NCBI GenBank assembly: GCA_001767455.1
Contig: MELC01000073.1
Location: forward strand, 23,324-87,323
Direction of reading: 5' to 3'
Origin: Acidobacteria bacterium RIFCSPLOWO2_12_FULL_66_21
Lineage (GTDB): Bacteria > Acidobacteriota > Vicinamibacteria > Vicinamibacterales > 2-12-FULL-66-21
DNA length: 64,000 nucleotides
In this document: in pieces, positions 53,690 through 56,677 of the stretch
How the letters are laid out: every line of letters starts with the position of its first letter
Numbering within the stretch: position 1 is the stretch's first letter
Position numbers and translations under genes: made by a program
The notes under the pieces: generated by a model
Told to the model about the DNA's origin: nothing
Database searches by the model: none
The model's input: the letters and a program-made list of their open reading frames with translations, nothing else

Positions 53690-54289
<600 letters not shown>

Positions 54290-54292
54290 ACA

Positions 54293-54470
54293 GTAGGCAG
54301 CAGGCAGCCGGGCAGGCAGCAGGCAGCGGGCAGCAGGCAGTGAGTCACACTGCAAGTGGCTATGTGTCTGTGCTGTCCCCTGATGCAGCAGGCAGGAAAA
54401 GTTCGTGGCTCGCAGGTCGCGACTCGCAGCTCGTCTGCCTAGCTGCGAGGCGCGAGCGGCAAGCCACGAA
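54293..54470. repeat. Heptamer arrays (GCAGGCA type and GCTCGCA/GAGCCAC type)
   Basis: GTAGGCA, GCAGGCA and related units fill 54295-54352. A second, partly inverted array of GTGGCTC, GCAGGTC, GCGACTC, GCAGCTC with GAGGCGC and AAGCCAC complements fills 54402-54468. Between them is a unique-looking 50 nt. No gene is seen in the 190-bp gap between convergent sod and the selenoprotein gene. Confidence 0.87.
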
Positions 54471-54480
54471 CATCCCGCGG

Positions 54481-54963
54481 CTAACTTCCGTCTCCGAGTT
54501 CCTGTATCGCGCGGTCGATCTCTTCGGGCGAGGGATATTCGTCCTGCCGTTCCGCGACGAACGAGTAGCGGATCTTCCCTGACCGATCGATCAGGAACAC
54601 CGCCGGGTGCGCGGTGTTCCAAGCATCGAGGCCGATCCGGCGCCACACTCCGTACGCTTTCAGCACCTTGCGCGACTCGTCGACGAGGATGTTGAACCTC
54701 AGCCCGGTTTCCTCGATGTAGCGCTTCACCGCCTCCGGCGACTGTGCCACGACGGGGACGATCTGCACGCCGCGGGCGGCGTATTCAGCGGAGCGGTCTG
54801 CCAGTTCACCGAACCGGCGGCGGCAGTTCGGTCACCATGTGCCGCGATGAAACGCGAGCAGCACCGGTCCTTTCTCGAGCAGCCGCGCGAGCGACCACAC
54901 GTCCCCCTTCTGTGTGGGCAGCTCGAACATCGGCGCGACGGCGAGGGGGGAAGGGTGAGACAT
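54481..54963 (-). CDS. Selenoprotein: peroxiredoxin-like thiol oxidoreductase with UGA-encoded Sec44 (UxxC)
   Basis: Read with TGA as Sec the gene encodes 160 residues: FELPTQKGDVWSLARLLEKG, then VLLAFHRGTW-U-PNC, then GVQIVPVVAQSPEAVKRYIE, GLRFNILVD, TAHPAVFLIDRSGKIRY. This is an AhpC/TSA thioredoxin-like fold where RGxWCPxC is expected and the first Cys codon is TGA (54834-54832). Sec44 replaces the peroxidatic cysteine; Cys47 resolves. Both halves are coding and match one fold, so the TGA is not a normal stop. The ATG overlaps the moeA stop (TGATG). No selABCD gene is in the window, so the decoding machinery must be elsewhere. Peroxide or thiol reduction is the likely role. Confidence 0.9.
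54800..54834 (-). promoter_or_regulatory. Bacterial SECIS element of the selenoprotein gene
   Basis: On the mRNA, UGA is followed by 13 nt, then GCCGGUUC, loop GGU, and GAACUGGC: an 8-bp stem with one G-U pair and a G-first triloop. The loop starts 21 nt after UGA, within the spacing used by SelB in bacteria. A competing 6-bp pairing CCGAAC/GUUCGG is also possible. Confidence 0.85.
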
Positions 54964-56183
54964 CAGAACAGCTTCACTTCCACCATCTCGCCCGCTTCGA
55001 CGATGTCGGTCTGCGCGGGGATCTCGATGTAGCCGTCGGCGTGCGCCATGCTCGTGATGTCGCCGGAGGCCTTGAAGACCGGCTCTGCGGTGCCGCCGAC
55101 GATGCGCACCGTGTAGAACTGATGACGTCCGGTCGTCGAGACGATCCGCCGGGAGAGCGGCACATTGACGGTGTGCGGCCGGTACTCCGGAAGACGTGCC
55201 ATGCGGCGCAGCAGCGGCACGAGCAGCATGTACGCGTTCGACAGGCATGAGGTGGGATAGCCCGGCATGCCGAGCACCGGCTTGCCGCCGACGCGTCCAA
55301 ATACGGTCGGTTTGCCCGGCTTCACCGCGATGCCGTGGAAGACGACCTCGCCGATCTGCTGGAGCGCATCCCTGATGAGATCGCGCTCGCCGACCGAGCT
55401 GCCGCCGGAGAACACGATGACGTCGTTCGACGCCGCGCGTTCGATGGCCGCGGTCAGCTCCGGCAGGGTATCGGGAGCGATCGGACCGGTGACCGCCAGG
55501 CCCCCGTGCGCCTCGATGATGGCGGTCAGCGTGAAGCGGTTGATGTCGTAGATCTGGCCCGGCCCCAGCCTCTGGCCGGGTTCCACGATCTCGTTGCCGG
55601 TCGACAGGATCGCGACGCGCGGTTTCGCGAACACCTCGACGTCGACCGATCCGGTGGCCGCAAGCGCGCCGATGCGGCTGGCGTTCAGGACGTCCCCCTT
55701 CGCGAGCACCGTCTGTCCCTCGACCATGTCGGCGGCGCGCCGGCCGACGTTCTGCCGCGGGTAGACCGGCGTGAAGATCCGGACGTCGTCCTCGCCCGGG
55801 CCCTTCCCGGTCTCCTCGACCATCACCACGGCGTCGGCGCCCGACGGCATCGGCGCGCCGGTGGCAATCTCGACGCACTCGCCGGACGACACACGGCGTA
55901 CGCCCACCTGTCCCGTGTACACCTTCTCGATCGATCGCAGCACGCGCGGGTCGTACTTGCCGGCGCCGAACGTGTCCTCGGCGATCACTGCGTAGCCGTC
56001 CATCGCCGCGCGATCGAACGGCGGCACGTCCGAGGTGGCATGCGCATCCCGCGCCAGCACGCGGCCGTTCGCCTTCTCGATCGCCAGCCGCTCGACACGG
56101 TCGATCGCCACTGCCTGCTCGAACAGCAGCCCCAGGGCCTCGTCGAGGGAGATCGTTTCGCGAATCGGCCGCATGGTGGTCAT
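54963..56183 (-). CDS. moeA: Molybdopterin molybdotransferase
   Basis: A 406-residue MoeA. Signatures: DVPPFDRAAMDGYAV, IATGAPMPSGADAVVMVEE, VAILSTGNEIVEPGQ, VFSGGSSVGERDLI and GKPVLGMPGYPTSCLSN. It inserts Mo into adenylated molybdopterin. Overlaps moaB by 4 nt (ATGA) and the selenoprotein gene by 1 nt. Confidence 0.96.
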   Translation of the reverse strand: MTTMRPIRETISLDEALGLLFEQAVAIDRVERLAIEKANGRVLARDAHATSDVPPFDRAAMDGYAVIAEDTFGAGKYDPRVLRSIEKVYTGQVGVRRVSSGECVEIATGAPMPSGADAVVMVEETGKGPGEDDVRIFTPVYPRQNVGRRAADMVEGQTVLAKGDVLNASRIGALAATGSVDVEVFAKPRVAILSTGNEIVEPGQRLGPGQIYDINRFTLTAIIEAHGGLAVTGPIAPDTLPELTAAIERAASNDVIVFSGGSSVGERDLIRDALQQIGEVVFHGIAVKPGKPTVFGRVGGKPVLGMPGYPTSCLSNAYMLLVPLLRRMARLPEYRPHTVNVPLSRRIVSTTGRHQFYTVRIVGGTAEPVFKASGDITSMAHADGYIEIPAQTDIVEAGEMVEVKLF

Positions 56184-56677
56184 CGCGTGAGCTCCCTCAC
56201 CACGTGTCCCACCTCGGGGAGGATGAGCTTCTCCATGGCGAGCCGGACCGCCTGCTCGGCGCCGGGGAGCGAGAACACGGCGGTGTGCGCGATCGAGCCG
56301 GCGCACGCGCGGCTCAGCATAGCCGCGGAGCCGACCGCCTCGTAGCTGAGCATGCGGAACAGCTCGCCGAAGCCGTCGAGCCGCTTGTCGACGGCCGACA
56401 TGATGGCTTCGTAGGTGCTGTCGCGCGCGGTAATCCCCGTGCCGCCGGTGGTGATGATCACCTGGACCGCCGTGGCCTGCCTTCGTACGATCTCGCGCAC
56501 CGCGCCGGGGTCGTCGTGCACGATGGCGCGTCCAGCGACCTCGTGTCCCGCCGTCGTCAGCATCTCCACGATCGCGTTGCCGCTCGCGTCGGTCTCCGGC
56601 GTGCGCGTGTCGCTGATCGTGAGGACAAAGCACGTCACCGACGCGGGGGCTGCTTTCCGGTGGAGGGCCACGGACAT
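56180..56677 (-). CDS. moaB: Molybdopterin adenylyltransferase (MoaB/Mog family)
   Basis: A 165-residue protein with FVLTISDTRTPETDASGNAI, VIITTGGTGITARDSTYEAI and FSLPGAEQAVRLAMEKLILP, the MoaB/MogA consensus. It adenylates molybdopterin before MoeA. First gene of the moaB-moeA-selenoprotein operon. The upstream gap to the family-3 glycosidase is filled with heptamer repeats. Confidence 0.94.
   Translation of the reverse strand: MSVALHRKAAPASVTCFVLTISDTRTPETDASGNAIVEMLTTAGHEVAGRAIVHDDPGAVREIVRRQATAVQVIITTGGTGITARDSTYEAIMSAVDKRLDGFGELFRMLSYEAVGSAAMLSRACAGSIAHTAVFSLPGAEQAVRLAMEKLILPEVGHVVRELTR

Follow-up and report, generated by a model that had tools for sequence, protein, structure and literature searches.

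A peroxiredoxin-like gene with a predicted selenocysteine codon next to moeA in a Vicinamibacterales genome

Peroxiredoxin-like (Prx-like) thiol:disulfide oxidoreductases that carry selenocysteine (Sec, U) in a UxxC motif have been in print since 2005, as excerpts of PMC1088965 attest. The excerpted texts of PMC1088965, PMC13188914 and PMC9312934 characterize these Prx-like oxidoreductase selenoproteins by the PF00578 domain and a UxxC or UxxU motif, and the family appears as a table row in the accessible part of PMC5029168. Sec peroxiredoxins, in the same excerpts of PMC1088965, are catalogued as TxxU and not as UxxC. In a stretch of 64,000 nucleotides (the window) from contig MELC01000073.1 of Acidobacteria bacterium RIFCSPLOWO2_12_FULL_66_21, we analysed a Prx-like protein gene with an in-frame TGA, here called prxU (54481..54963, minus strand). 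Our analysis leads us to conclude that prxU is a real selenoprotein gene and a further member of this known kind; the original prediction overstated its novelty in light of the 2005 description as excerpted. Very probably, prxU is one gene whose UGA is read as Sec at residue 44, yielding a small Prx-like protein with the motif W-U-P-N-C that is likely a thiol/selenol-disulfide oxidoreductase.

The minus strand from 54963 to 54481 forms a single open frame of 160 residues that ends in TAG and whose sole interruption is the TGA at 54834-54832 (codon 44, 54832..54834), giving the read-through protein ...FHRGTW-U-PNCRRRFGEL...; the coordinates originally predicted for the frame and the TGA were borne out when we re-read the sequence. 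The read-through protein matches the PF00578 AhpC-TSA domain with 103.4 bits (cut-off 26) over residues 10-133, and Redoxin with 77.9 bits, both matches spanning the TGA. Eleven NCBIfam models also match it, none of them (0/11) above its own cut-off. The standard-code open reading frame (ORF) listing splits this frame: the downstream piece is a 95-aa ORF that starts at GTG 54768, and the upstream piece is a 348-aa ORF that ends at the TGA and extends through the moeA region in the frame of prxU, which differs from that of moeA.

The strongest evidence comes from the conservation of the TGA. Codon 44 is TGA in all 20 loci that cover it, one per genome in 20 genomes (the source genome and the 19 others that keep prxU), namely L020-L038 (19 loci, our own included) and L073, one of two pieces from genome G011; the other G011 piece (L039) starts after the codon. 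W-U-P-N-C is present in 19/19 of L020-L038, and L073 reads W-U-R-N-C. A search started from P0001 gave some match at E<=0.001 in 97 of 100 genomes, among which a strong group with 54-69% identity comprised 18 other single-piece loci and the two G011 pieces. Each of the 18 single-piece relatives has exactly one internal stop, and it is TGA. When scanned with three Cys homologues, 20 of 162 genomes of the order (at 1e-30), 20 of 193 genomes of the class and 4 of 396 genomes drawn from the phylum gave matches, the four phylum matches all being TGA forms. Every match covering the codon in these scans was a TGA form, the exception being the G011 piece that begins past it, and no Cys-form DNA that could serve as a control for the RNA signal discussed below was found in the order, class or phylum scans. 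Two of the order-scan matches also meet a TAG close to their end. A scan of the genome_contigs set returned four distant loci. The rates of nonsynonymous and synonymous substitution (dN and dS), computed on segments compared ungapped, gave dN < dS on both sides of codon 44 in all 11 pairs tested (drawn from the 18 single-piece relatives); judged from these sequences, purifying selection is acting on prxU before as well as after the TGA.

Database homologues agree with this picture. Among the 120 homologues listed of 831, all 120 of which we inspected, the residue aligned with codon 44 is Cys in 119 and Trp in one, as expected from the original claim that Cys homologues align at the TGA. The share of Cys forms is biased, because the database consists of predicted proteins, from which Sec forms would largely be missing. 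Each listed homologue is a single protein, 137-170 aa long, and among them are P0002 from an Acidobacteriota bacterium and P0079 from a Vicinamibacterales bacterium. Cys and TGA forms share 64-74% identity, which suits the family to questions about the retention or loss of Sec. A single origin of the Sec form was considered; a quick, incompletely searched tree of the listed 120 of 831 homologues requires six changes. The protein's only Cys, Cys47 (TGC, 54823..54825, minus strand), is likewise the only Cys in 17 of the 19 read-through proteins.

The genome (6.48 Mb in 91 contigs, 100% complete, 2.62% contamination) contains the complete Sec-decoding set: selA (426.6 bits, over the cut-off), selB (347.8 bits, cut-off 242.25), selD (359.6 bits, cut-off 125) and a tRNA-Sec with anticodon tca (59.5 bits, cut-off 47), the latter confirmed by ARAGORN and Rfam. 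Absence of SelB or tRNA-Sec, which the original prediction had named as grounds for abandoning it, was thus not observed, and its assignment of Sec to residue 44 is supported by the conserved TGA together with this machinery. A second tRNA-Sec candidate (49.8 bits) was rejected, as ARAGORN assigns it to tRNA-Ser. The selD gene of the same genome (L017:1468-2529) carries a TGA itself, in the sequence YSSCAGUASK. In the order, selA is present in 124 of 162 genomes, and it accompanies prxU in 19 of 20 genomes compared with 105 of the 142 that lack prxU (p 0.046, relatedness ignored), a co-occurrence that says little; genome G001 carries prxU yet shows no selA, which speaks against our interpretation. 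Overall, U44 is almost certainly a selenocysteine, as predicted.

Bacterial Sec insertion is guided by a hairpin, the selenocysteine insertion sequence (SECIS), and a candidate lies at 54800..54818 (minus strand). It reads GCCGGUUC-GGU-GAACUGGC, forming 8 bp closed by a GGU loop at -11.8 kcal/mol, with the stem beginning 13 nt past the UGA and the loop 21 nt past it. The bSECIS model, as excerpted from PMC13188914, specifies a loop of 3-9 nt, a stem of 4-16 bp, a G among the first two bases of the loop, a spacing of 16-37 nt and a minimum free energy of at most -7.5, and the prxU hairpin falls within all of these published ranges. An 8-bp hairpin occurs at the same place in 12 of 19 loci, with the loop GGU in ten and GGC in L023 and L030; four of the 19 have a shifted 7-bp hairpin with the loop GUU. 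The 27-nt stretch past the motif has a folding energy of -8.9 or less in all 19 loci. The stem lengths total 141 over the 19 loci, against a maximum of 121 in 400 synonymous recodings, relatedness again being ignored.

Several results weigh against the hairpin as a dedicated signal. In L028, L033 and L038 the stem reaches just 5-6 bp, and among 2589 codon positions taken from six genes of the window, 4.6% carry a stem of at least 8 bp that obeys the loop rule. Synonymous recodings of this gene were at least as stable in 11% of 2000 draws; locus by locus, equally stable recodings made up 3 to 34% of draws, for which reason we rejected folding energy as decisive proof of a SECIS, and of 400 draws at each locus, 2 to 70% reached a stem as long as the native one. 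Covariation in the 8-bp helix comes down to a single compensatory cell, with 120 of 500 shuffles equally high. For the shifted 7-bp hairpin, 9 of 500 shuffles were equally high, and its pairs form in just 74.4% of cells. Thus the stem, loop, spacing and fit to the published model that had been predicted all stand, with little covariation behind them. The hairpin evidence beyond coding constraint is modest, covariation being nearly absent, and taken alone the hairpin is weak evidence. Because this support is modest, the case for Sec depends chiefly on the conservation of the TGA and on the decoding machinery.

Distant paralogues were found in other genomes of the order. Seven of them (L042-L047 and L049; 26-30% identity, open frames of ~340-417 aa) have TGA at the equivalent place in a W-U-P-[YW]-C motif, and all seven have a perfect 7-bp hairpin 21 nt past the TGA. 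The best hairpin of the distant TGC paralogue L040, which is the only natural control, has 3 bp. For L041 and L048, also distant, tblastn yielded no alignment, and the comparison covers the loci named above.

The active site indicates what kind of enzyme this may be. The original prediction placed U44 at the peroxidatic Cys of RGxWCPxC, and this did not hold: in the alignment with the peroxiredoxins 2ywn and 4g2e, U44 stands opposite the peroxiredoxin Thr, which precedes the peroxidatic Cys by three residues; the peroxidatic column itself is occupied by Cys47, present in every one of the 66 aligned rows. When aligned to ResA, U44 and C47 face the first and second Cys of CxxC. At the column of the catalytic peroxiredoxin Arg, which is also the thioredoxin cis-Pro place, all 66 rows have Pro (Pro120, 54604..54606, minus strand). 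These features bear on a reading of prxU as a true Sec peroxiredoxin that mainly reduces peroxide, with U44 attacking the peroxide. The protein does have the peroxiredoxin fold, and its overall fold is closer to peroxiredoxins than to ResA, so that it may have peroxidase activity; moreover, the structure model is poor near Pro120 (mean predicted local distance difference test score, pLDDT, of 60 for residues 111-120), and both points count against our preferred reading. Set against this reading, the column that holds Thr or Ser in TxxC and TxxU peroxiredoxins is taken by U44, Pro replaces the Arg whose presence at the cis-Pro place serves as a peroxiredoxin criterion in the excerpted part of PMC2757866, and the known Sec peroxiredoxins are TxxU in the catalogue as excerpted. 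We therefore regard a dedicated Sec peroxiredoxin as unlikely.

Rather less probable still is that the UGA is decoded as Trp or another residue, or that the locus encodes two separate short proteins. One listed homologue, P0102, has Trp at position 44 (GTWWPNC), perhaps a TGA translated under a Trp code in gene calling, and the 95-aa ORF beginning at 54768 could be taken for the second protein. Against these ideas, the neighbouring moaB-type gene and moeA themselves terminate at TGA, the tRNA-Trp that we met has the anticodon cca (no search was aimed at further tRNA-Trp), the 120 listed homologues are single proteins without exception, and the Sec machinery is present in the genome. A pseudogene or sequencing error, in which the TGA is a genuine stop followed by decaying sequence, would account for the divided frame in the standard ORF list and is hardly credible: it has already been refuted by sequence conservation, the identical TGA recurring in 20 genomes (the original prediction had named a base error at this codon as a possible refutation) and purifying selection apparently continuing downstream of it.

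On the preferred reading, that of a Sec44 thiol/selenol-disulfide oxidoreductase, SelB would bring Sec-tRNA to the UGA via the hairpin whose loop sits 21 nt past it. The selenolate of Sec44, sitting where the active-site helix begins, would attack a disulfide (or a peroxide); Cys47 would then resolve the Sec44 adduct, giving a selenenylsulfide between U44 and C47 that thioredoxin or a similar reductant could reduce. The protein probably acts in the cytosol, because no export signal is apparent in it by eye. It is likely produced along with MoaB and MoeA by way of the overlaps between their start and stop codons and perhaps, as a guess, checks thiols or peroxides during molybdenum-cofactor assembly.

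This guess comes from the neighbourhood. Upstream of prxU on the same strand lie moeA (54963..56183; Pfam MoeA_N, MoCF_biosynth and MoeA_C), whose TGA stop shares bases with the ATG start of prxU (TGATG), and a moaB-type gene (56180..56677; Pfam MoCF_biosynth) that overlaps the moeA start (ATGA). The coupling to moaB and moeA, already remarked on in the original prediction, is conserved. In 18 of 19 loci, which come from five families, moeA directly precedes prxU on its strand, its match ending 128-252 bases ahead of the TGA; L038 lacks it. moaB was found in 14 of the 19, within flanks that end at ~1500 bases. A convergent Fe/Mn superoxide dismutase gene (53690..54289, plus strand; Pfam Sod_Fe_N and Sod_Fe_C) lies downstream, as it does in 10 of 19 loci. 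Between it and prxU, the window contains repeated CTGCCTGCTGC-like units at 54300-54480.

The genome has 12 molybdopterin oxidoreductase matches, two of them with an in-frame TGA followed by His. L098 reads U-H-A-P, which fits the UHxP motif listed for Sec formate dehydrogenases in excerpts of the selenoprotein literature, and L104 reads U-H-S-S, a partial fit. Among the selenoproteins already known, a Sec form of MoeB is on record (PMC1088965, as excerpted). Given the conserved moeA and moaB, these TGA-bearing oxidoreductases and the known Sec MoeB, a role of prxU in molybdenum-cofactor assembly is plausible. More specifically, the protein could conceivably be a dedicated MoeA partner that keeps the molybdopterin dithiolene or MoeA reduced during molybdenum insertion, for example to the benefit of the two TGA-bearing oxidoreductases; we consider this improbable. 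Were it true, selenium and the molybdenum cofactor would be tied by a second bond, of redox type, since Sec MoeB is already in print. This conserved neighbourhood is the most interesting part of the finding; the position after moeA provides a testable lead to a Sec redox protein serving cofactor assembly. The clade also represents selenoprotein genes divided by standard-code ORF listing, in an order where selA is as widespread as noted above.

In the openly licensed literature we found nothing joining selenoproteomes with Vicinamibacteria, only works unrelated by title for selenocysteine with Vicinamibacter and, in a single search, nothing combining moeA, selenoprotein and peroxiredoxin. The excerpted literature on Prx-like selenoproteins makes no mention of the moeA neighbourhood, and the accessible text of the deep-Sep paper (PMC12013277) names no such family.

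Among known systems, the best NCBIfam match of prxU is the SelL-related redox protein model NF040769 (62.9 bits over residues 10-106, below its cut-off of 120), which scores 54.5-60.4 in the four listed homologues that were scanned. prxU resembles ResA in that U44 and C47 stand opposite both Cys of CxxC, with Foldseek TM-scores of 0.70-0.74 when normalised by model length, but differs in having no apparent export signal, an NCBIfam ResA score of 59.3 versus a cut-off of 170, and an overall fold nearer to peroxiredoxins. With the TxxU Sec peroxiredoxins it shares the Pfam domain and the overall fold, whereas its Sec is found at the Thr column, three residues ahead of theirs, and Pro replaces Arg. 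The closest likeness is to the Prx-like oxidoreductase selenoproteins as excerpted, for which the reference is WP_010940744.1, compared here by description through motif and domain: like them, prxU combines an AhpC-TSA domain, UxxC where Sec peroxiredoxins have TxxU, a downstream hairpin and homologues with Cys.
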